Below, in pieces: positions 1-38,122 of a DNA stretch of 63,100 bases. The DNA is taken from contig CAADGB010000537.1 in assembly GCA_900696455.1 (NCBI GenBank), positions 1 to 63,100 of the forward strand. The letters run 5' to 3'. A program made the translations under genes and the position numbers. The DNA is from an uncultured delta proteobacterium. GTDB lineage: Bacteria > Myxococcota_A > Polyangia > Haliangiales > Haliangiaceae. Within the stretch, counting starts at the first letter, position 1. Every line of letters starts with the position of its first letter. The notes below the pieces were generated by a model. That model had not been told where the DNA came from and made no database searches. It was given only the letters and a program-made list of their open reading frames with translations.

Positions 1-305
1 GGCGCCGGCAAGCGCCCGACATCACTCGCGCGGCCCCACCTTTCCGGTCGGCCTGAGCCGCCCGAGCGCAAGCGAGGGCGTGTCGAAGGCCGACAAGCCG
101 CGGCTTCTTCCCGTTCGTTTCCCGCGAGCTCCGACCGCGGTCGGTGAAGAGCTCAGGCCGACCGGAGGGATCGGCTCGCCGTTCGTTTCCCGCGAGCTCC
201 GACCGCGGTCGGGGAAGGGCTCAGGCCGACCGGAGAGTCGTGATCGCCGCTCGTTTCCCGCGAGCTCCGACCGCGGCCGGGGAAGATCTCCGGGCGAGCG
301 GATGG
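1..305. repeat. Palindromic REP-like block with three 68-bp tandem units
   Basis: No gene is seen here. Positions 1-33 (GCAAGCGCCCGACATCACTC core) recur almost unchanged at 14229-14262. Positions 44-95 form one arm (CCGGTCGGCCTGAGC...GTGTCGAAGGCCGAC). From 112 a 68-bp unit starting CGTTCGTTTCCCGCGAG is repeated at 112, 180 and 248, the last partial. Each unit has the 14-bp palindrome CCGACCGCGGTCGG (131-144, 199-212; one mismatch at 267-280) followed by a CTCAGGCCGACCGG arm. The block lies just past the stop of the leftward PHA synthase gene, so on its transcript the palindromes could form 3' hairpins. Confidence 0.85.
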
Positions 306-308
306 CGC

Positions 309-1427
309 TCAGGTGGGGGCGGGCGCGGCCGGATCGGGCGCCGGGCCCGGCTCGTCGGCGAGGCCGCGCGCGGCGTCGGTGTCGCGCGTCGCCCACCAGC
401 GCGAGAGCTGCGGCCACAGGCCGGTGGCCGCCTTGCGCGAGATGACGGCGCCGACGTGGCCGCCGCTCAGGTGGAGCTGGGCGCGATCGGGCGACGCCGC
501 GTGCGCGAGGAGCGCGGTGGCGCTGGCGGTGGGCACGATGTGGTCGTGCTCGAAGGTCACCGCCAGCAGCGGACAGTCGATGGCGTCGAGGCGAGCGGGC
601 CGACCGCCCAGGCGCATCGTGCCGGCGACCAGGCGGTTGTCCTGGTACAGCTCGGTGATGTAGCGGCGGTAGCACTCGCCGGGGAACGAGACGTTGTCGT
701 TGCCCCAGCGCTCGCTGGCCAGGAAGCCGTCGAGGAACTCGTCGTCCCAGGCGCGATCGACCAGGGTGACCAGCTTGCTCAGGTTGAGCGTGGGCTTGAG
801 CAGGTGGAAGCTGGCCTGCATCAGCGGCCACGGCACGTTGCCGAAGCCGTCGACCAGCGCGCCGACGTCGAAGCCGGGGACGCGGGTCCAGGTCGCCAGC
901 GTGCCGCCGTGGGCGAAGTCGATCGGCGCGGCCAGCGCCACCAGCGAGGCCACGCGCTCGGGGTTGGCGGCGGTGTGGATCGCCGCCAGGGTGCCGCCCA
1001 GGCAGTAGCCGAGGACGTGGGCGACGCCGTCGGGGCTGGCGGCGGCGACCTTGCGCACGGCGCGCCCGAGGTAGCCCTGGCACACGTCGTCGAAGGTCAG
1101 GTAGCGATCCTCGGCGGTCGGCGTCCCCCAGTCGATCAGGTAGACGTCGTGGCCGGCGCCCACCAGGTACTCGACGAAGCTCTTGCCGGGGCGCAGGTCG
1201 AGGATGTACCAGCGGTTGATCAGCGACGGCACGACGAGGATCGGCGTGCGCCAGCGCTCGGCCGCCGGCCGCGTGGGCCGGACGCGCAGGAGCCGCCACT
1301 TGTTCTCGTGCCAGACCACGTCGTGCGGGGTCTGGCCGACCGCGGGCAGCCCCTGCCCCAGGCGCCGGCCGAGGCGGGCGAGCGCGGCGACCACGCCGCG
1401 GTGCGAGGGCGAGCCGGCGCGGCTCAT
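309..1427 (-). CDS. phaC: Class III-type polyhydroxyalkanoate synthase PhaC
   Basis: Polymerises hydroxyacyl-CoA into polyhydroxyalkanoate at the granule surface. The 372-residue length is that of class III/IV PhaC rather than the roughly 590-residue class I enzyme. The lipase-like box GYCLGG puts the catalytic Cys at 142, with Asp295 (EHDHIVP) and His324 (GGHVG). The Cys-Asp and Asp-His spacings (153 and 29) equal those of the Allochromatium vinosum class III enzyme (C149, D302, H331), from memory. The ATG overlaps the ligase stop by 4 bp (ATGA), so the two are translationally coupled. Class III PhaC needs a PhaE partner, and a small PhaE-like protein is encoded at the head of this gene group. 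A Pro/Ala-rich tail follows residue 355. A paralogue lies at 11173. Confidence 0.93.
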
Positions 1428-3109
1428 GCGTAGAGGGCCTCGAAGCGGGCGCGGTAGCGGGCGTAGACCGCCTTGCGCCGCAGCTTGAGCGAGGGGGTGA
1501 GCAGCCCGTCCTCGACGGTGAGCGGGGCGTCGCCGATCCAGTGCTTCTTGATGGTCTCGAAGCTGGCCAGCCGGGCGTTGACCGCGGCCACCGCGCGCGC
1601 CGCCTCGGCCGCGCGGGCCTCCGCCGGCACCGACGGCGCCAGCCACACCGCCGCCACCAGGTACGGCCGACCGTCGCCGTAGACCACGACCCGCTCGATC
1701 GCCGGATCGTCGGCGAAGCGGGCCTCGAGGTTGGCCGGCGGCACGTTCTTGCCGCCGGCGGTGACCAGGATGTCCTTCTTGCGGTCGACGATCTGGAGGA
1801 AGCCGTCCTCGGTCCAGCGCCCGACGTCGCCGGTCTTGAACCAGCCGTCGGCGGTGAAGGCGGCGGCGGTAGCCTCGGGGTCGTCGTGGTAGCCGGCGAA
1901 GACGCTGGGGCCGCGGGCCTCGATCTCGCCGTCGTCGGCCAGGCGCAGCTCGACCGAGCGCAGCGGCTTGCCCACGGCGTCGAAGCGGTAGTCGTCGGGG
2001 CGGTTGAGGGTGAGGGTGGGCGAGGTCTCGGTCAGGCCGTAGCCCTCGATCACCAGCACGCCGGCGGCGGCGAGCGCCTCCTTGATCTCGACCTTGAGGC
2101 CGGCGCCGCCCGACAGGCAGAAGCGCAGGCGGCCGCCGGTGAGCTCGGCCAGGGCGCCGCGGCGGGCGGCCGGATCGTCGCCCGCGCGCTCGATCATCGC
2201 CCGCGCCAGCTTCTCCCAGTACGCCGGCACGCTGAAGAAGACGTGGGGCGCGACCTCGGGCAGGAGCGGCAGCGCCTCCTGCGGCGTGGTCATCCAGGTC
2301 TCCCAGCCGAGGAGGTTGCCGGTGCAGAGCTGGCCGAAGCCGAAGATGTGGCTCATGGGCAGCCACAGGAGGTCGCGGTGGTCGGAGGCGAGCAGGCTGG
2401 CGTTGCTGACCAGCCAGTCGGCGGCGTTGACGCCGACGTTGCGGTGGGTGAGCGGCACGCCCTTGGGGGGGCCCGAGGTGCCGCTGGTGTAGAGCATGAG
2501 CCCGGGCCGATCGAGGTCGATCGCGTCGAGGCGGAGCTGGACCCGCGCCGGGTGGGCGCGGTCGAGGGCGCGGCCGCGCGCGAACAGCTCGGGGTCGTCG
2601 AGGGCGAGGAGCGGCACCGCGGCCGGCAGCCGGGCCACCGCCTCCTCGGCGCGGGCCCGCACCGCGTCGCCGGCGAAGACCGCCTTGCACGCGGCGTGGC
2701 CGAGGACGTAGGCGGCCTGCTCGGCGGTCGACGCCGGGTAGATTGGCACCATGACCGCGCCCGCGGCCTGGACGCCGAGGGCGGCGGCGGCCCACGCCAC
2801 CGAGTTGGTCCCGAAGACCGCGACCCGGTCGCCGGCGGCGACGCCGAGGGCGCACAGGACGGCGGCGGCGGCGCGGAGCTGGGCGGCGAGCTCGCTCCAG
2901 GTGACCGCGGTCCACGACCCGTCCGGATTCCGGACTCGGAAGCGGACGTGATCGGCCCGCGCCGGCAGCGCGTCGAGCACGACGCACGGCGCCGGGCGCA
3001 CGGTCGCGGGCGCGGCCGCGTGGCCGCTCGCGTGGTCGGTCGCGGGTGCGGCCGCGGGCCCGGTCGGGTGCCCGACCGGGTGCCGGTACAGATACGGCGT
3101 CACGTCCAT
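1424..3109 (-). CDS. AMP-dependent long-chain acyl-CoA ligase
   Basis: ATP-dependent activation of a carboxylic acid to its CoA thioester, a 561-residue protein of the ANL superfamily. The P-loop [11 protein letters not shown] is near residues 207-217, the YGLTETSP motif follows, then the hinge and C-terminal subdomain ([23 protein letters not shown]). In the FadD15/FACL-type group the last motif is typical of long-chain ligases. It is co-transcribed with phaC and overlaps its start, which suggests that it supplies hydroxyacyl-CoA, or recycles acids from polymer turnover; that is inference. A strong GAGGAGG ribosome site lies just upstream of the ATG. The first 40 residues are an Ala/Pro/Thr/His-rich extension. 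Confidence 0.93.
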
Positions 3110-3178
3110 GGCGTCCTCCTCGTCCTCTTCCTCTTCCTCGTCTGGGTCCCTGGCGCGGTCCCGGTCCGGCCGCCGCCG

Positions 3179-3472
3179 TCAGGCGTCGCCGCGGCGGCTG
3201 GCCGCGAGCTGCTCCTCGAGATCCGCGATGCGGCTCTCGAGCTGGTTGAGCTTGTGCAGCCCGCGCTCCTGGTCACGGCGCGTGGGCAGGCCGATCGACG
3301 CCCACCAGGCGTGGACCGCCTTGTCGGTGGCGGCCTTGGTCTTCATGGCGGCGGTGAGCATGGCGCCGGCGGGGCCCAGCACCGCCGGGTTGGCGAGCAC
3401 CTGCTCGAGGTAGGTGGCGGTGGCGCTCTCCCAGGCGCCGAAGCCCTTCTTCCACTGGTCCCACAGGTTCAT
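3179..3472 (-). CDS. Small PhaE-like/phasin-like PHA synthase partner
   Basis: A 97-residue protein. Residues 1-60 are amphipathic and Trp/Ala-rich (starting MNLWDQWKKGFGAW). The end (LPTRRDQERGLHKLNQLESR and onward) is a heptad-like helix. The pattern of short-chain loop, PTR/K, then L-hxLxxLE coiled coil matches the C-terminus of class III PhaE and class IV PhaR synthase subunits, but the protein is under a third of the usual PhaE length. The ATG is chosen because GAGGAGA lies 5-11 nt upstream; longer readings run back into the preceding gene. It is first in the group ligase-PhaC, so it is plausibly the activating subunit or a granule-bound phasin. Family assignment rests on this C-terminal pattern only. 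Confidence 0.7.
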   Translation of the reverse strand: MNLWDQWKKGFGAWESATATYLEQVLANPAVLGPAGAMLTAAMKTKAATDKAVHAWWASIGLPTRRDQERGLHKLNQLESRIADLEEQLAASRRGDA

Positions 3473-3509
3473 GACGATCTCCTCGGTTGCGTGATGGCGC
3501 CGGCCGCGC

Positions 3510-4322
3510 TCACAGCGCGAAGCGGCGCAGCTCACTGGCGATGGTGAAGTCGGCGGCGGGCTCGTCGGCGCGGCTGGTGGCGCGGCCGAGCTCGCCCATG
3601 CACTCGAACCAGAACGAGACCTGGCGGCGGCTGGTGACGACGCCGCCGACGGCGGGCGTCGACACCACGCGCGTGCGCAGGCGCAGGGCGCGGGTGAAGC
3701 GGACGTAGGGCAGGTGCAGCTCGCCGCTGGCGTCGGCGCTCAGCTCGTAGACGTCGGCGCCGCTGTACGGCAGCCCGGCCAGGGTGCCGCCGGTGATGGT
3801 GCCGGTCGCGGTCCAGGCGTCGCCCTCGGCGAGCGGGAAGCGGAGCACCGCCACCGGCGCGTCGTAGGCCAGGAGCGTGCGCGCCGAGGCCGGCTCCATC
3901 GTCGGCGACGCCAGGCCGAGGAGGTAGATGGCGGCGGCGTCGCGGGCGTAGACCCCGTCGAGGCCGCCGGCGCCGGCGGCGACGAACTGGCCGCCGGGGA
4001 ACGCCGACGCGTACCACTGCCGGCCCAGCGCGACCGCGCCGAGGTCGGCCGCGGCGTCGTCGCGGCGCTCGACGCTCCAGTCCCAGCGCCGGGTCGCGTC
4101 GGCGCCCTCGCCGGCGACGTCGACCGCGACGTCGACGCCGATCAGGTAGGGCGCGGTGGCGCCGAGCCCCAACGGGATCTCGTCGGCGGTGAGGACGCCG
4201 TCGAGATCGGGCACGCAGGCCAGCGGCGGGAACGGCTCGCCGTCGCCCGGCGGGGTCAGGTTCTCGCCGCAGGCGGCGAGCAGGACGGCCGGGCCGGCCA
4301 GGCCGAGGAGCGCGGCGCGCAT
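3510..4322 (-). CDS. Lipoprotein of unknown function (paralogue of the gene at 7267)
   Basis: A 270-residue predicted lipoprotein with signal peptide and lipobox LLAAC at residues 14-18, so it is probably outer-membrane anchored. It is clearly related to the 322-residue protein at 7267-8235. Shared landmarks in the same order are CxPDxDGxLTxDE, DVAVDxAG, QWxASFP, LGxxSP, RTxLxYDxPV, PLxxGxxW and a C-terminal F..EC...A.ELxRxA. I do not recognise the family. The start overlaps the stop of the upstream barrel gene by one base (TGATG), so the two are coupled. Position between PHA genes may hint at a role in extracellular polymer or lipid handling, but nothing in the sequence proves it. Confidence 0.82.
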   Translation of the reverse strand: MRAALLGLAGPAVLLAACGENLTPPGDGEPFPPLACVPDLDGVLTADEIPLGLGATAPYLIGVDVAVDVAGEGADATRRWDWSVERRDDAAADLGAVALGRQWYASAFPGGQFVAAGAGGLDGVYARDAAAIYLLGLASPTMEPASARTLLAYDAPVAVLRFPLAEGDAWTATGTITGGTLAGLPYSGADVYELSADASGELHLPYVRFTRALRLRTRVVSTPAVGGVVTSRRQVSFWFECMGELGRATSRADEPAADFTIASELRRFAL

Positions 4323-6010
4323 CAGAACACGTACCCCAGGCGCAGGCGCACGAGCTGGGCGGCCGCGGCGTCGAGGCCGGCGACCGGGTTGTCGAAGGCA
4401 GCGCCGGGCAGGAGCACGGCGTAGTCGAGCGCGGCGCGGAAGCCCTCGGCCTGGTAGGCCAGCGTCGGATCGAGCTCGAGGCCGAGGTGGCGCGCGCCCG
4501 ACGGCGTGGAGCTGGGCGCGACCGCCCACGACGCGACCGCCGCCACGGTGAGGTCGAGGCGACCCGGGCCGACCTCGGCCAGGGTGAGGCGGACGTGGGG
4601 GCGCAGGTAGATGGCGTCGGTGACGGTGCCGACGAGCTCGGCGAACAGGATGCGATCGATCTTGTAGTCGGGGTGGAAGCGGAAGTTGTCGACGGTGGTG
4701 TCGCCGGGCGGATCGGCCTGCGGGCCGTCGAGATCGCCGGGCCGGGGGGCGGCGGCGCCGGGCGCCGGGAACGCGCCGAAGCCGGGCGCGTCGTCGCCGG
4801 AGGCCACGCCGGCGTCCACGCCCACCGCGTGCGCGCCGAGGGCGAGCTCGGTCTCGACCGCGAGGCCGAACTGATCGGAGGTCGCGGCCTGATCGAGCAG
4901 CACGCCAGGCAGGAGCGACGGCTGGTCGACGCGGGCGCGCGCGTAGACCGCCTCCAGCTCGACCCGCGCCCGCGCCGTGGTCAGGCGGAACCACACGCCG
5001 CCGGTGGTGGCGGCGAAGCCGCGGGCCATCAGGTCGGAGGCGTCGAGGGCGCCCGGCGGGCGCGGCACCGCCACCGGCAGGTAGTGCGCGGGCACGTCGC
5101 GGGCCTGGCGGCGATGGCTGGCGAACACGCCGTACTCGACGGTGGCGAGGCCGGCGGCGGCGCGCCGGGCGCGGGCGGCGGGCGCGCGGGTGCGCAGGAC
5201 CGCCGCGGTCCAGGTCGTGGCGTCGTCCGACGGCTCGAGATCGACGGCGCGGCGCTCGTCCGGGCGCGGCGCGAACGGGCCGCTCGCCGCCACGTCCCAG
5301 GCCACGGCGACGACGTGGCCGAGGAGCGGCGAGGCGAAGGCCACGCGATCGGCGGCGTCGCCGCCGTCGCACTCGTCGCAGTCGCCGCCGTGCGCCGCCA
5401 TCCCCAGCCCCCAGTGCGCGCCCATGCGGCCGGCGGCGAGGACGCCGAGCGGGGTCAGGACCTCGCCCCACACCCGCTCGACCGCGATCGCGCCCGGGGT
5501 CTGGCCCGGCGACGCCGCGGGCGTCGGCGCGCGGCCGGTGCCGGCCTCCGGCGAGCCGCCCCACGGCAGGTTGTCGAGGACGTCGAGGCGGGCGTGGACG
5601 GCGACGCCGGCGCCGGGCGCCCGCAGGCTGAGGTCGGTGCGCAGCCGCAGGTCGCCGCCGTCGAGGACCTGGCCGCCGCCGAGCGGCACCGGGAAGACCG
5701 GTCGCCCCGACGGGTCGAGGCCGCGGTCGAGATCGAGGTTGATGAGCGCCTCCTGGCGGATGCGGAACGCGCCGCGGACGTCGACCTCGGTGCGCTCGCG
5801 CGGCGCCACGAAGGCGCGGGCGGCGAGCTCGGCGCCGAGCACGGCGAGATCGGTCTCGGGGCCGGCGGCGGGCGCGAGGGCGGGCGCGGGCGCGGGCGGC
5901 TCGGCGTGGGCGAGCGCGGGCGCGAGGGCGAGGGCGAGGGCGAGCGTGGGCGCGAGGGCGAGCGTGGGCGCGAGGGCGCGCGTGGGCGCGAGGGCGCGCA
6001 GCGCTGGCAT
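4322..6010 (-). CDS. TIGR04551-like outer-membrane beta-barrel protein
   Basis: A 562-residue exported protein with alternating short amphipathic segments ending in Phe (LRLGYVF), as expected for an outer-membrane barrel. The block GRMGAHWGLGMAAHGGDCDE with a following DGGDAADRVAF matches what I recall of the myxobacterial TIGR04551 family (WG.G...GDC..CD.GD..DR). The role is unknown. The signal peptide is itself a repeat (RALAPTRALAPTLALAPTLA, from an 18-bp DNA unit at about 5920-6000) and ends at ALAHA. The ATG at 6010 is preferred because upstream in-frame sequence is Ser/Glu/Pro/Thr repeat DNA. It heads the likely operon barrel, lipoprotein, PhaE-like, ligase, phaC. Confidence 0.8.
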   Translation of the reverse strand: MPALRALAPTRALAPTLALAPTLALALALAPALAHAEPPAPAPALAPAAGPETDLAVLGAELAARAFVAPRERTEVDVRGAFRIRQEALINLDLDRGLDPSGRPVFPVPLGGGQVLDGGDLRLRTDLSLRAPGAGVAVHARLDVLDNLPWGGSPEAGTGRAPTPAASPGQTPGAIAVERVWGEVLTPLGVLAAGRMGAHWGLGMAAHGGDCDECDGGDAADRVAFASPLLGHVVAVAWDVAASGPFAPRPDERRAVDLEPSDDATTWTAAVLRTRAPAARARRAAAGLATVEYGVFASHRRQARDVPAHYLPVAVPRPPGALDASDLMARGFAATTGGVWFRLTTARARVELEAVYARARVDQPSLLPGVLLDQAATSDQFGLAVETELALGAHAVGVDAGVASGDDAPGFGAFPAPGAAAPRPGDLDGPQADPPGDTTVDNFRFHPDYKIDRILFAELVGTVTDAIYLRPHVRLTLAEVGPGRLDLTVAAVASWAVAPSSTPSGARHLGLELDPTLAYQAEGFRAALDYAVLLPGAAFDNPVAGLDAAAAQLVRLRLGYVF

Positions 6011-6014
6011 GGGT

Positions 6015-6242
6015 CCTTCGACTCGGCGCTGCGCGCCTCGCTCAGGACGAACGGTGAGTGTGTCGTGCTCGGCCACGGTCTCGGTCTCGGATTCGGTCTC
6101 GGATTCGGTCTCGGACTCGGTCTCGGACTCGGTCTCGGGTTCGGGTTCGGGTTCGGATTCGGACTCGGGTTCGGATTCGGACGCGGGCTCGTCTGCTCCC
6201 CGCTCGCCCTGAGCGAAGCCCCGCAGGGGCGACGTCGAAGGG
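6015..6242. repeat. Inverted REP-like arms flanking a TCGGTC/TTCGGA minisatellite
   Basis: The left arm at 6015-6054 (CCTTCGACTCGGCGCTGCGC...CTCAGGACGAACGG) and the right arm at 6201-6242 (CGCTCGCCCTGAGCGAAG...GTCGAAGG) are reverse-complement relatives. Between them, at about 6075-6187, lies a 6/12-bp tandem repeat built from TCGGTC, TCGGAT, TCGGAC and TCGGGT. The whole 6011-6274 interval lies between the barrel gene and the alpha/beta hydrolase gene and holds no convincing gene; its leftward reading is Ser/Glu/Thr/Pro repeat only. The same architecture recurs inside a coding sequence at 39411-39764. Confidence 0.85.
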
Positions 6243-6274
6243 CCCCGGCCGGCCACCGCTCGCGGCGCCTGCCG

Positions 6275-7270
6275 TCAGTCGGACGCCTCCGGCCCCGGCC
6301 CCGCCTCCGGCGCTGGCAGCTCCCGCTCCGGCCCGGGCGTGGCCGCGCTCCGGACGTCGGCGCCGAGGAACCGGCCGAGGTCCCGCGTCGTCGGGTGAAA
6401 GGCCTCGACCATCGGGATGTGGCCGCAGGCGGCGTAGACCTCGAGCGTCGCGTCGGGCAGCGTGCGGGCGAGCTGGTGGCCGTAGCGCAGGGGCGTGACC
6501 AGATCGTCGTCGCCCCACAGGAGCAGCACCGGCTGGGCGATCTCGCCGTAGCGCGCCTCCTGGCCGCGGAAGCGCTGGCCGCGCGCCGCCGCCAGCGCCG
6601 CCGCCACCGCGCCCGGCCGTCGCAGCTCGGCCTCGACGTGCTCGACCCGCGCCTGGGTCACGAACCGCCGGTCGTGGTAGGCGAGCCCGACCCGGTCCTC
6701 GACGCGCTCGCGGTAGTAGAGCGCGAACAGCGCCTCGCCCAGCCCGTCGAGCCGGGCCCAGCGCAGGAAGCTCGGCACCTGGGCCTCGAACACGTACGCG
6801 GCGTAGAGCGCGAGCCGCCGGACCCGCGCCGGCTGGTCGAGGGTCATCGCCAGCGCCACCGACGAGCCCCACGAGTGCCCGACCACCGCGACGTCGGCGA
6901 CGCCGAGCTGGTCGAGCACGCCCCACACCAGCGCCGCCTGCGCCCGCGGCGAGGAGTCGCCGGCCGGGCGGCTGGTCCAGCCGAAGCCCTTGAGGTCGAC
7001 CGCGATGACGCGGTGGCGCGCCGCCAGCGCGTCCTGCACCGGCCGCCACAGCTCGATCGACGCGCTGTAGCCGTGGACGAGCACCACCGCCGGGCCCTGA
7101 CCGACGTCGCGGTAGTGGACGTGGACGCCGTCGACCTCGACGAACGTGGCGCCGGCCGGCGCCCCCGGCAGCGGGCCGCCGTGGAAGCCGAGGCAGCCGG
7201 CGACCATCGCCGCGGCCGCCGCCATCGTCGACATCCACAGCCGCAGCCACGCCGATCCCGGCGGGCTCAC
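6275..7270 (-). CDS. Alpha/beta hydrolase lipoprotein
   Basis: A 331-residue serine hydrolase. HGYS oxyanion-loop motif, nucleophile elbow GHSWGSS (Ser), acid in LLLWGDDDLVTP, and His in ACGHIPMVEAFHP. This is the order of the epoxide hydrolase/haloperoxidase-like branch; the substrate is not readable. The GTG start at 7270 overlaps the stop of the upstream lipoprotein gene (GTGA) and gives a signal peptide with lipobox MVAGC at about residues 22-26; the ATG at 7234 would leave a poor signal. An exported esterase or depolymerase would suit the PHA context, but I see no polymer-binding domain. The C-terminal 25 residues are Pro/Glu/Gly-rich. Confidence 0.85.
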   Translation of the reverse strand: MSPPGSAWLRLWMSTMAAAAAMVAGCLGFHGGPLPGAPAGATFVEVDGVHVHYRDVGQGPAVVLVHGYSASIELWRPVQDALAARHRVIAVDLKGFGWTSRPAGDSSPRAQAALVWGVLDQLGVADVAVVGHSWGSSVALAMTLDQPARVRRLALYAAYVFEAQVPSFLRWARLDGLGEALFALYYRERVEDRVGLAYHDRRFVTQARVEHVEAELRRPGAVAAALAAARGQRFRGQEARYGEIAQPVLLLWGDDDLVTPLRYGHQLARTLPDATLEVYAACGHIPMVEAFHPTTRDLGRFLGADVRSAATPGPERELPAPEAGPGPEASD

Positions 7271-8235
7271 GGCGCCAGCCTCCACAGCTCGGCGGCGTCG
7301 GTGAACTCGCTGCCCTGCTCGTAGTCCTGGGAGGCGATCGTCGCCACCGTGCCGTAGCACTCGGCGACGAAGGCGAAGCTGCGCCGCGTCGTCACCAGGG
7401 CGCCGACGGTGCGCGTGAGATCGACGGCGAGGCGCCGCACCGGGAAGGTCCCGAACGGCGTGGCGGCGTCGCCGATCGCGTCGACCCGCCCCTGGTAGCG
7501 CTCGCTGTAGAACGCGGCCACCCCGCTGGCCAGGCCGCTCACCGTCGCCGTGACGTTCCAGCTCGCCCCGGGCGGCAGCGGCGTGGGGATGATGGGCACC
7601 GGCGGATCGTAGGTCAGCTCGGTGCGGGACAGGCCGGCCTCGGGGCTGACCACGCCGAGCAGCGCGACCCCGGCGTCGTCGAGGCGCATCACGCCGAGGA
7701 GCGGGCTCTCGGCCGACAGCCGGGCGGCGTAGCTCGCCGCCGGGAAGCTCGCCGCCCACCACTGGCCGGCCGGCGCCACCAGCGTCAGGTCGAGATCGCG
7801 GTCGCCGGTGGCGGCCGCGGCGAAGGTCCAGGTGCGGGCGCCACCCGCGCCCAGCACGCCGGCGGTGTCGACCGCGACGTCGGTCGCGACCCGGAAGCGC
7901 GCGGTCTGGCCGGCGGCCATGACCAGCTCGTCGCGGGTGAGCGTGCCGTCGTGATCGGGCGCGCACCCGGTGGCGGCGTCGGGGCCGGTGGCGTCGGTGC
8001 CGCCGGCGTCGGGCTCGTCGTCCGGGGCGCAGGTGTGGTCGGCGCGGCAGAAGCCCGACGGGCAGTCGGTGTGGTCGTCGCAGGTGGCCGGGTTCGATCG
8101 CGAGCAGCCGGCGACCAGCCCCAGCGCCGCCGCGAGCGCGACCGCGAGCACGGGCGCCGCGAGCGCGGGCGCCGCGACCGCCCGCGATCCGGTCCCGGGA
8201 TTTTGCAACGCAACATGAGAGCGCGGCGCGGCCAT
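7267..8235 (-). CDS. Lipoprotein of unknown function (paralogue of the gene at 3510)
   Basis: A 322-residue protein with a long signal peptide and lipobox LVAGC near residue 44. A short Cys-rich stretch follows (CDDHTDCPSGFCRADHTC), the pattern seen in many myxobacterial surface lipoproteins. Then comes the domain shared with the protein at 3510-4322 (CAPDHDGTLTRDE, DVAVDTAG, QWWAASFP, LLGVVSPE, TELTYDPPVP, LPPGASW, FVAEC, AAELWRLAP). The family is unrecognised. It is coupled to the hydrolase by a 4-bp overlap. The first codons overlap a TTGCAACGCAA dyad at 8203-8213, so a PhaR-type site may act on this gene as well as on divergent phaR. Confidence 0.8.
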   Translation of the reverse strand: MAAPRSHVALQNPGTGSRAVAAPALAAPVLAVALAAALGLVAGCSRSNPATCDDHTDCPSGFCRADHTCAPDDEPDAGGTDATGPDAATGCAPDHDGTLTRDELVMAAGQTARFRVATDVAVDTAGVLGAGGARTWTFAAAATGDRDLDLTLVAPAGQWWAASFPAASYAARLSAESPLLGVMRLDDAGVALLGVVSPEAGLSRTELTYDPPVPIIPTPLPPGASWNVTATVSGLASGVAAFYSERYQGRVDAIGDAATPFGTFPVRRLAVDLTRTVGALVTTRRSFAFVAECYGTVATIASQDYEQGSEFTDAAELWRLAP

Positions 8236-8344: not shown

Positions 8345-9013
8345 GTGGCCGCCACGCTCATCAAGAAGTACGGCAACCGCCGCCTCTACGACACCGGGGA
8401 CAGCCGCTACATCACGCTCGAGGAGCTCGCGACCAAGATCCGCGGCGGCAGCGACGTGCGCGTGGTCGACGCCCGGAGCGGCGAGGATCTGACCCAGGCC
8501 ACCCTGACCCAGGTCATCCTCGAGAGCGGCAGCGCCCACCGCACCCTGCCGGTGCCGCTGCTCACCCAGATGATCCGCCTCGGCGACGACGCGCTGGGCG
8601 AGTTCTTCAGCCGGTACGTCACGGCCGCGCTCGAGCTCTACCTGAGCGCCCGGCGCGGCGTGCAGTCGCTGGCGCAGGTCTCGCCGCTCACGCGGGTCCC
8701 GCTGGGCGCCACCGACGCCCTGGCCCGCATGTGGATGCAGACGCCCTTCGGGCAGATGATGGGGTTCGGCCCGGCGCCCTACGCCCCGCCGCCGCCGGCG
8801 TATCCGCCCTACGTCGAGCCCGAGTCGCCGCCCGACGAGCGCGGCGAGGCCGCGCGCGCCGATCGGGGTGACCGCGACCGCGCCGGCAGCGGCGAGCGCG
8901 CCGCCAGCGAGGGCGACGTCGCCGCGCTCCGCCGGGAGCTCGAGGAGCTCAAGCAGGCGATGCGCGGCGACGGCCTCGGCAAGCCCGGCGCCCGCCGCAA
9001 GCCGCGGTCCTGA
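8345..9013 (+). CDS. phaR: PHA synthesis regulator PhaR
   Basis: A DNA-binding repressor that also senses PHA granules and controls phasin genes. The N-terminal domain (residues 5-65, KKYGNRRLYDT then YITLEEL) is the PHB/PHA accumulation regulator DNA-binding domain (PF07879 type). Residues 70-115 correspond to the PHB_acc domain. The rest is a Pro/Tyr linker (FGPAPYAPPPPAYPPY), a charged Arg/Asp/Glu stretch and a terminal coiled coil (DVAALRRELEELKQAM). At 222 residues it is of ordinary size. The GTG start lies 6 nt after a TAGGGT -10 box with no ribosome site, so the mRNA is probably leaderless. It sits between the two pha gene groups and is converged upon by the symporter gene. Confidence 0.92.
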   Translation: MAATLIKKYGNRRLYDTGDSRYITLEELATKIRGGSDVRVVDARSGEDLTQATLTQVILESGSAHRTLPVPLLTQMIRLGDDALGEFFSRYVTAALELYLSARRGVQSLAQVSPLTRVPLGATDALARMWMQTPFGQMMGFGPAPYAPPPPAYPPYVEPESPPDERGEAARADRGDRDRAGSGERAASEGDVAALRRELEELKQAMRGDGLGKPGARRKPRS

Positions 9014-10627: not shown

Positions 10628-10640
10628 TTGTGCAACGCAG
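10628..10640. promoter_or_regulatory. PhaR-type operator candidate (TTGTGCAACGCAG)
   Basis: The core is TGC-AAC-GCA at 10631-10639. The left half TTGTGC equals that of the perfect site at 10701; the right half is imperfect. It lies in the divergent region, closer to the symporter start. Confidence 0.5.
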
Positions 10641-10700
10641 TAATCAGGTTGATTTCTTACGCAATCTCAGACTGATGCATCGCCGTGACCGTTCGAGGAT

Positions 10701-10753
10701 AATTGTGCGTTGCACAATTCTGGGTTGACAGCGCCAGGGACGGTGCCTAGGGT
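10701..10753 (+). promoter_or_regulatory. Perfect 8-bp-arm operator plus phasin promoter
   Basis: AATTGTGC-GTT-GCACAATT at 10701-10719 is a perfect inverted repeat and contains the TGC-N3-GCA core. Five bases later TTGACA (10725-10730) is followed after 17 bp by TAGGGT (10748-10753), the same -10 hexamer and spacing as at phaR. The start should fall near 10760, leaving a short leader with the GAAAGGAA ribosome site. The AT-rich patch 10622-10720 stands out from the GC-rich surroundings. Confidence 0.75.
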
Positions 10754-10776: not shown

Positions 10777-11148
10777 ATGACCAAGCCCGACAGCAAGACC
10801 GAGACCCCGAAGCCCGAGCCCGCGTCCCCCAAGGCCGAGCCGCCGCCGCCCCAGGCCCGGGCCAGCGAGGCCCGCGCCCCCTGGGACCTGCCCCTGCCCT
10901 TCACCCTGCCCACCCCCGAGGCCTTCGGCCAGATGGTGCGCGACCACATCGCCCGTACCCAGGGCATGATGGAGGAGCTGGCGGTGTACGAGGGCGTGGC
11001 CGTGCAGCGCGCGCGCACCGCGGTCAACGATCTGGCCCGGCTGACGGCGGACTCGCTCGGCTACATGTCCCAGCTCTCCGCCGAGTGGCGCAAGCTGGCG
11101 CTGGACGCCGGTCGCCGCGCCGCCGACGCCGTCGCCCCGAAGAGCTGA
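10777..11148 (+). CDS. Phasin family protein
   Basis: A 123-residue granule-associated protein. Residues 1-38 are a Lys/Pro/Glu-rich disordered head. Residues 40-118 form one long amphipathic helix pair beginning PWDLPLPFTLPTPEAFGQMV and continuing with regularly spaced Ala/Leu, as in Phasin_2-type proteins and PHA granule proteins. It is the first gene of the phasin-PhaC-reductase operon and sits directly behind the perfect PhaR-type operator, as phasin genes do in other bacteria. A ribosome site GAAAGGAA precedes the ATG. It could also act as the PhaE-like partner of the adjacent synthase, since no other partner is encoded here. Confidence 0.8.
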   Translation: MTKPDSKTETPKPEPASPKAEPPPPQARASEARAPWDLPLPFTLPTPEAFGQMVRDHIARTQGMMEELAVYEGVAVQRARTAVNDLARLTADSLGYMSQLSAEWRKLALDAGRRAADAVAPKS

Positions 11149-11172
11149 CCCGCGCCGCGCGAGCCCCGCCGC

Positions 11173-12249
11173 ATGACGCCCTTCCACCTGTGGACGCGCT
11201 ACGCGCGCGCGCTGGCCGAGGCCTGGTCGGGCCCGGTCGGCGATCTCCCCGGCCGTCCCCCGCTCCGGCTCGCGCCCACGCCCCGCGACGTGCTGGCGCG
11301 CGAGGGCACGGCGCGCCTCTACCGCTTCGTGGCCGACGGCGCGCGCGGCGATCGGCCGCGCCGCGCCCCGCTCCTCCTGGTGCCGTCGCTCATCAACCGC
11401 TGGTACGTGCTCGACCTCCGCCCGGGCGCCAGCCTGGTGGCGGCGCTGGTCGGCGCCGGCCTCGACGTGTACTGCCTCGACTGGGGCGCGCCCGAGGACG
11501 AGGACCGCTACCTCGGCTGGGACGAGGTGCTGGCTCGCCTCGGCCGCATGGTGCGGCGCACCATGGCCGACGCCGCCGCCGACCGCCTCGGCGTGCTCGG
11601 TTACTGCATGGGCGGCACCCTCGCCGCCATCCACGCCGCGCTCCACCCGGGGCAGGTCGCGGCGCTGGCCAACCTGGCCGGCCCCATCGACTTCGCCCGT
11701 GGCGGCGCGCTCACGCACATGGTCGATCCCCGCTGGTTCGACGCCGACGCCATCGCCCGGGCCGGCAACGTCGCGCCCGAGCAGATGCAGTCGGGCTTCA
11801 CGGCCCTGCGCCCGACCCTCGAGCTGTCGAAGCTCGTCGCGTGGCCGGACCTGGCGGCCGATCCGGCGGCCCAGACCAGCTACCGCGCGCTGGAGGCGTG
11901 GGCCGCGGACAACATCGCCTTCCCCGCCGCGGCCTATCGCACGTACATCCGCGACCTCTACCAGGACAACCGCCTGGTCGCCGGCACCCACCGGGCGCTC
12001 GGCCAGCGGGTCGACCTGGGGGCCATCCGCTGCCCGACCCTGGCCATCGTCGCCGACCGCGACCAGATCTGCCCACCGGCGGCCGCCACCGCGCTGCTCG
12101 AGCGGGTCTCGACCACCGACACCACCACGCTGCGCGTCCCCGGCGGCCACGTCGGGGCCGTGGTCGGCAGCCGCGCCGCCCGCGAGCTCTACCCGGCGGT
12201 CGCCGACTGGTTCGCGACCAGGCTTGCGGCCGGCGCCACGCGCCACTAA
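11173..12249 (+). CDS. phaC: Class III-type polyhydroxyalkanoate synthase PhaC (second copy)
   Basis: A 358-residue hydroxyacyl-CoA polymerase. Catalytic Cys145 in GYCMGG, Asp297 in ADRDQICP, His326 in GGHVG. The core [15 protein letters not shown], LDWGxPxxEDRYL, GGTLAAIH and [11 protein letters not shown] blocks are shared with the copy at 309-1427, so the two are paralogues that have diverged at the N-terminus (none of the Arg-rich head) and lack the Pro-rich tail. It lies 24 bp behind the phasin gene and 35 bp ahead of the reductase, in an operon that should respond to PhaR. Confidence 0.94.
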   Translation: MTPFHLWTRYARALAEAWSGPVGDLPGRPPLRLAPTPRDVLAREGTARLYRFVADGARGDRPRRAPLLLVPSLINRWYVLDLRPGASLVAALVGAGLDVYCLDWGAPEDEDRYLGWDEVLARLGRMVRRTMADAAADRLGVLGYCMGGTLAAIHAALHPGQVAALANLAGPIDFARGGALTHMVDPRWFDADAIARAGNVAPEQMQSGFTALRPTLELSKLVAWPDLAADPAAQTSYRALEAWAADNIAFPAAAYRTYIRDLYQDNRLVAGTHRALGQRVDLGAIRCPTLAIVADRDQICPPAAATALLERVSTTDTTTLRVPGGHVGAVVGSRAARELYPAVADWFATRLAAGATRH

Positions 12250-12284: not shown

Positions 12285-13052
<768 letters not shown>

Positions 13053-14228: not shown

Positions 14229-14381
14229 CGGCGCCGACAAGCGCCCGACATCACTCGCGCGACGGCCGCGGCTTGTCGGCCTTCGACACGCCCTCGCTGA
14301 CGCTCGGGCGGCTCAGGCCGACCGGAGAGATGCAGCTCGCCGTTCGTTTCCCGCCATCTCCGACCGCGGTCGGTGAAGAGC
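14229..14381. repeat. REP-like palindromic block, second copy
   Basis: The roughly 340 bp between 14042 and 14381 hold no gene. 14229-14262 repeats the sequence at 1-33. 14276-14324 is the CTTCGACACGCCCTCGCTGA...CTCAGGCCGACCGG arm, in the opposite orientation to that at 44-95. 14340-14379 is one 68-bp-type unit with the palindrome CCGACCGCGGTCGG at 14360-14373. The palindrome begins about 10 nt past the stop of the leftward HlyD-like gene. The rest (14100-14228) is GC-rich DNA in which I see only loose CGGCTG/CAGCCG inverted motifs. Confidence 0.82.
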
Positions 14382-37881: not shown

Positions 37882-38122
37882 CGAACGACGACCCCATCTC
37901 TCCGGTCGGCCTGAGCCCTTCACCGACCGCGGTCGGAGATCGCGGGAAGCGAACCGCGACCCCATCTCTCCGGTCGGCCTGAGCCCTTCACCGACCGCGG
38001 TCGGAGATCGCGGGAAGCGAACCGCGACCCCATCTCTCCGGTCGGCCTGAGCCGCCCGAGCGCCAGCGAGGGCGTGTCGAAGGCCGACACGCCGCGGCCG
38101 TCGCGTGAGTGATGCCGGCGCG
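37882..38122. repeat. REP-like block with 68-bp tandem units, third copy
   Basis: No gene is seen in 37809-38148. Units beginning CCCCATCTCTCCGGTCGGCC start at 37892, 37960 and 38028, a 68-bp period identical to that at 112-305 but in opposite orientation. Palindromes CCGACCGCGGTCGG lie at 37923-37936 and 37991-38004. The third unit runs into the CGGTCGGCCTGAGCCGCCCG...GTGTCGAAGGCCGAC arm (38039-38089), and 38096-38122 resembles the reverse complement of positions 1-30. The block follows the stop of the DUF4139 gene by about 75 bp. Confidence 0.85.

Follow-up and report, generated by a model that had tools for sequence, protein, structure and literature searches.

A predicted minimal PhaE-type partner of a PHA synthase encoded in a conserved locus of Myxococcota

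The small protein encoded upstream of the PHA synthase PhaC1 in this DNA, here called mini-PhaE, is probably a minimal PhaE-type accessory subunit for PhaC1, in which the C-terminal third of PhaE has the form of a stand-alone gene. It would most likely fold as a three-helix module with a coiled-coil end, bind PhaC1 and help it to assemble and to act, the role that PhaE has in class III and PhaR in class IV synthases, and an intervening acyl-CoA ligase, presumably co-transcribed, would probably supply hydroxyacyl-CoA to PhaC1 from free acids. The mode by which PhaE and PhaR activate their synthases is not settled in the open-licence literature. A core-only partner of 97 residues would reveal the essential part of PhaE and offer a natural system of very small size in which to study synthase activation. 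The deep conservation of the locus, which connects polyester storage with a secreted hydrolase and a porin, also offers a way into the PHA metabolism of Myxococcota, a phylum with many uncultured members. Bradymonas is placed in this phylum. PHA granules have been reported in this predator (PMC7460792).

Organization of the locus

The window, that is the whole 63,100-nucleotide stretch of DNA analysed, is contig C537 of a genome of 8.0 Mb that is 95% complete; its close relatives are MAGs that bear the labels Myxococcales or Kofleriaceae. The minus strand carries seven genes in the same orientation (lipB-hydrolase-barrel-lipA-mini-PhaE-ligase-PhaC1), and the plus strand a PhaR regulator, a 123-residue protein, a second synthase (PhaC2) and a ketoreductase. 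Start codons were inferred for several genes, including those of the beta-barrel and the hydrolase. The features are as follows:

309-1427, minus strand: PhaC1, PHA synthase catalytic subunit, class III/IV-like, 372 aa (TIGR01836 291.7 bits, PF07167, catalytic triad)
1424-1427, minus strand: ATGA, 4-bp overlap of ligase stop and PhaC1 start (sequence)
1424-3109, minus strand: AMP-forming acyl-CoA ligase, 561 aa (PF00501 224 bits, PF23562)
3179-3472, minus strand: mini-PhaE, 97 aa, 10.7 kDa, corresponding to the PhaE C-terminal third (PF09712, TIGR01834, family profile)
3479-3483, minus strand: Shine-Dalgarno sequence AGGAG of mini-PhaE (sequence)
3510-4322, minus strand: lipA, lipoprotein without a known family (lipobox LAAC in the translation)
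4322-6010, minus strand: outer-membrane beta-barrel, OprD/Occ-like predicted fold, start inferred (structure model, fold match)
6275-7234, minus strand: alpha/beta-hydrolase lipoprotein, start inferred (PF00561 115.6 bits, nucleophile motif GHSWG, lipobox VAGC)
7267-8235, minus strand: lipB, lipoprotein related to lipA (lipobox VAGC; a lipA query matches orthologs from the lipB region)
8345-9013, plus strand: PhaR, DNA-binding regulator of PHA synthesis (PF07879 90.3 bits, TIGR01848)
10628-10717, no strand assigned: inverted pair of TTGTGCAACGCA, candidate regulator site before the phasin-like gene (exact copies at 10628-10639, plus, and 10706-10717, minus)
10777-11148, plus strand: phasin-like protein of 123 aa, encoded ahead of PhaC2 (identified from its position alone)
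11173-12249, plus strand: PhaC2, PHA synthase, 358 aa (TIGR01836 248.0 bits, triad, own clade)
12285-13052, plus strand: SDR ketoreductase, FabG/PhaB type (NF006072 282.3 bits, against a cut-off of 298)

The PhaR regulator (PF07879) is distinct from the class IV synthase subunit that shares its name. The gene calls, lengths and strands of an initial annotation of this DNA hold, with PhaC1 at 372, PhaC2 at 358 and the small proteins at 97 and 123 residues. Its coordinates, 309-3472, take in just the first synthase group, and the second lies outside them, at 10777-12249. What it had called a fusion of synthase and ligase is the 4-bp overlap of two separate genes.

Both synthases contain the G-x-C-x-G-G box and a complete triad, formed by C142, D295 and H324 in PhaC1 (C-D spacing 153, D-H 29) and by C145, D297 and H326 in PhaC2 (152 and 29); the reference enzymes of classes III and IV used for comparison have 153-163 and 29. 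PhaC1 is without the N-terminal domain of class I synthases. The proposed class III identity stands as far as triad, class III/IV spacing and a size of about 40 kDa are concerned, but although TIGR01836 is the top named PHA synthase model for both proteins, each scores below its curated class III cut-off of 365.3 bits. In a tree of 155 synthases, whose deeper nodes are weakly supported (0.44-0.83), the PhaC1 synthases that go with mini-PhaE and ligase form their own clade (support 0.995) and the PhaC2 group a separate one (support 1.0), whose genes stand after a phasin-like gene, not after mini-PhaE. The neighbouring clade, joined through weak deeper branches, holds the class III/IV references together with Myxococcota synthases that have a mini-PhaE gene directly upstream. 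A third TIGR01836 match in the genome (L004, G000:C152:6842-7777) was rejected as a synthase, with Ala and His replacing the catalytic Cys and Asp in the alignment.

The 123-residue protein had been labelled a phasin. No Pfam or TIGRFAM-type model recognises it and no known phasin family was found for it, and the label, a guess, comes from position only: its orthologs adjoin PhaC2. One of five orthologs gives a weak match to Phasin_2 (E 0.048). A near copy of TTGTGCAACGCA stands at 8201-8212, before PhaR, and the TTGTGCAACGCA copies are possible PhaR sites; with up to 2 mismatches, their total count in the window is not above chance, and a rough k-mer scan gave no clear shared motif for PhaR binding. 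Separately, six copies of a 29-bp GC-rich sequence, CGTTTCCCGCGAGCTCCGACCGCGGTCGG, counted at 2 mismatches or fewer where chance predicts none, lie at window positions 116-280, 14345-14373 and 37923-38019; it looks like a dispersed intergenic repeat.

Homology and distribution of mini-PhaE

The 97-residue frame is coding and no chance frame: GC by codon position is 67/51/97%, a Shine-Dalgarno sequence precedes it, and differences between relatives fall mainly at third codon positions. A profile comparison with the PhaE family, proposed beforehand, confirmed the match, with negative controls. Mini-PhaE aligns to PF09712 (E 1.8e-5, profile positions 231-307 of 311) and to TIGR01834 (E 3.9e-6, positions 233-320 of 324), both below the curated cut-offs (24.6 vs 25.7 bits and 26.6 vs 154.95 bits, respectively); the PF09712 cut-off is passed by some of its relatives in the phylum. 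Among 27 diverse relatives, 25 match both models (best E 5.5e-9 for TIGR01834 and 9e-9 for PF09712), and TIGR01834 matches none of 10 reversed sequences. In a profile-profile alignment with reference PhaEs (E 1e-11), 90 gap-free columns lie at the C-terminal end of the references, with a score of 66.6; the reversed profile scores 16.9, and none of 60 column shuffles exceeds 6.2. A chance coiled-coil match is ruled out by these reversed and shuffled controls. The PhaE-like C-terminal coiled coil first described is thus homologous to PhaE, but the likeness is wider and takes in about 90 residues, essentially the whole protein. The mini-PhaE family profile in turn recognises annotated partner proteins, namely Haladaptatus PhaE (38.6 bits), Sinorhizobium PhaE (29.9 bits) and Priestia PhaR (32.0 bits), whose reversed sequences reach at most 1.8 bits (whole-sequence score), the value for reversed PhaR. 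Because the beginning of class IV PhaR is matched by the family profile too, mini-PhaE can be read as the core shared by PhaE and PhaR; judged from these alignments, the miniature looks like the part that stands at the C-terminus of PhaE and at the N-terminus of class IV PhaR.

By strict membership the 97-residue protein is not a PhaE, since it misses both curated cut-offs and is at most half the size. It does have the homologous C-terminal domain and the gene linkage to phaC that mark a PhaE, and its homology and conserved position suggest that it probably works like one. AlphaFold2 predicts helices at residues 3-27, 29-59 and 65-95 for the single chain (pLDDT 79, pTM 0.35); with this pTM the packing is not given, and the model was left out of the fold search. 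No solved structure related to mini-PhaE was found. The window's 97-residue protein has no match to TIGR02132 (class IV PhaR), and neither it nor the 123-residue protein matches the phasin families PF05597 and PF09361.

Within the order, mini-PhaE was found in 28 of the 35 genomes. Across the phylum, PF09712 alone matches 79 of 379 genomes, nearly all only at profile positions ~230-310, and with the family profile a relative, usually of ~90-200 residues, is encoded in 136 of 379 Myxococcota genomes, so the arrangement is not confined to this genome but is common there. The 112 strong matches have a median of 109 residues (66 of up to 130, 44 of 131-200, and one long outlier that reflects a wrong start choice); this count uses automatic start choice and fetched stretches that include repeat fetches of some genomes. 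The earlier statement that no full-length PhaE is encoded is borne out, in that PF09712, TIGR01834 and the family profile found no other PhaE, full-length or otherwise, in the 95%-complete genome. A full-length PhaE was detected in just one of the 379 genomes (347 aa, G187:C29, L046), where the adjoining PhaC scores above the class III cut-off. Another Myxococcota genome contains a haloarchaeal-type PhaE of 184 residues and a class III PhaC above the curated cut-off (G251:C188, L047 / L078), which may be contamination or transfer. A tblastn search gave no mini-PhaE match on plasmids. No description of a PhaE of this size, or of a myxobacterial PhaE, was found in open-licence papers, which is weak evidence of novelty.

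Linkage was assessed in 80 relatives retrieved together with flanks of up to 5 kb. The order is mini-ligase-PhaC in 35 of these loci and mini-PhaC in 32, so that in 67 of 80 a synthase gene lies downstream on the same strand, via the ligase or directly; five have the ligase without PhaC in the stretch, and eight have neither, seven of which are weak matches. The claim that mini-PhaE leads the PhaC1 group accordingly agrees with a conserved pairing. PhaC is present in 123 of 136 genomes with the miniature vs 67 of 243 without it (the genomes are related, and the p-value is only indicative). Mini-PhaE thus stays beside PhaC where the ligase is absent, and because the partner goes with phaC with or without the ligase, the best evidence is at hand that it works with the synthase. 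Distance-tree correlation does not single out PhaC1 (partial r 0.31 for mini-PhaE with PhaC1 vs 0.32 with the reductase). Overall, a miniature PhaE partner is well supported, and the claim applies far beyond this genome.

A different role for the small protein would be that of a granule-associated phasin or PhaM-like activator, which coats the polymer or tethers the granule and is not a stoichiometric synthase subunit. The helical prediction with its coiled-coil end suits such a protein, and 3-4 of the 27 relatives resemble the granule-protein models PF05597 or TIGR01837; however, the PhaE models match 25 of the 27 as well as the window protein, itself without a phasin match, the alignment spans the PhaE C-terminal domain from end to end, and in 32 loci the gene stands directly before phaC, which leaves this role improbable. 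Far less probable still, to the point of being negligible, is a decayed remnant of PhaE. The gene's length falls far below that of known PhaE, and the genome yielded no full copy, yet intact frames, a Shine-Dalgarno sequence, codon-position bias and strong conservation over the phylum contradict decay. A minimal accessory subunit for PhaC1 is accordingly the reading that we retain.

The wider block and the source of monomers

Among 20 regions fetched, about 17, which come from several classes, distant ones included, keep the order reductase-PhaC2-(phasin-like)-PhaR, lipB-hydrolase-barrel-lipA-mini-ligase-PhaC1, and in some of these no phasin-like protein, no PhaR or no reductase could be detected; another two are rearranged, and one is without the lipoprotein-hydrolase-barrel part. 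In many relatives lipA is kept beside mini-PhaE, and the block of lipA, lipB, hydrolase and barrel (3510-8235; L114-L133) accompanies PHA genes across much of the phylum. Of these four proteins only the hydrolase, which has a lipobox and a complete-looking Ser-Asp-His set, belongs to a convincing Pfam family. The barrel matches no sequence family. Its model (pTM 0.65, pLDDT 62) resembles OccK/OprD chains with Z ~22-24 over ~330 residues at 8-13% identity, and also AlgE. In six related loci (L035-L040; e.g. L036 2577-5210) hydrolase and barrel form one open frame of 843-909 residues, a naturally occurring fusion between surface enzyme and porin-like barrel; the window has the two in the same frame, parted by a stop at 6275-6277.

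The nearest solved relatives of the ligase are fatty-acyl/aryl-CoA ligases. The suggestion that its presence hints at free hydroxy acids as monomers is reasonable, and it is strengthened by the conserved gene order rather than by the overlap itself: free-hydroxy-acid monomers would be compatible with a ligase that adjoins an OprD/Occ-like porin and a secreted hydrolase, and the conserved block may suggest a path from acids released outside through uptake and ligase activation to polymerisation by PhaC1.

How the two synthases are supplied with partner and substrate can be read in other ways. An ordinary acetyl-CoA route via the FabG/PhaB-type reductase, with the ligase only feeding fatty acids to beta-oxidation, is a credible reading, if a little short of an even chance. 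The SDR reductase downstream of PhaC2 is conserved there and the ligase resembles general fatty-acyl-CoA ligases, but it is the ligase, not the reductase, that is coupled to PhaC1, between mini-PhaE and PhaC1 in 35 loci, and the hydrolase and porin lie upstream of ligase-PhaC1. We are more doubtful that mini-PhaE serves both synthases in trans, with PhaC2 as a second catalytic subunit that has its own granule protein; PhaC2 belongs to the same conserved locus, at a distance of ~8 kb, and the genome showed no other PhaE-like partner for it, but its clade is separate and its genes follow the phasin-like gene instead of mini-PhaE. Somewhat more speculative again is the widest interpretation, in which the block is one scavenge-and-store device feeding PhaC1 and its minimal PhaE, and the miniature is the ancestral core of class III PhaE and class IV PhaR. 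Here, an outer-surface hydrolase would free (hydroxy) acids, e.g. from prey lipids or polyesters, an Occ-like porin and the lipoproteins would import them, and the ligase would activate them for direct polymerisation by PhaC1 with minimal PhaE.

Comparison with known PHA synthase systems

Parts of the locus also resemble proteins outside the PhaEC systems. PRK07868 (NF005898) is a 994-residue protein named as an acyl-CoA synthetase, the N-terminal part of which matches PhaC; it joins a PhaC-like domain and an acyl-CoA synthetase in one protein, whereas two overlapping genes are found here. The predicted fold of the barrel resembles that of OprD/Occ porins, which are 18-strand barrels, at an identity of 8-13%.

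The class III systems of PhaC and PhaE (40 kDa PhaE in A. vinosum, 20 kDa in haloarchaea) are like PhaC1 and mini-PhaE in having a PhaC of ~40 kDa with the same triad and spacing, a partner gene linked to phaC, and a PhaE C-terminal domain that mini-PhaE matches. PhaE, however, is given as 20-40 kDa (PMC6403647, PMC7137286) and has an N-terminal region, whereas mini-PhaE has 10.7 kDa; the window PhaCs also score below the TIGR01836 cut-off and, in the tree with its weakly supported deeper nodes, fall outside the clade of class III/IV references. Rhizobial plasmid PhaEC likewise places a short PhaE, profile-related to mini-PhaE, beside phaC, but at 190 residues this PhaE is twice as long. In the class IV systems of Bacillus and Priestia, which have the same triad spacing, the PhaR subunit has ~200 residues (20-22 kDa). 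In PhaR of P. megaterium the stretch that the mini-PhaE profile matches is residues 11-103, and PhaR carries a long C-terminal extension that mini-PhaE does not have. One paper notes that the phaE genes of Rubrobacter are about as similar to phaR as to phaE (PMC8146576), which is in line with a core shared by PhaE and PhaR.
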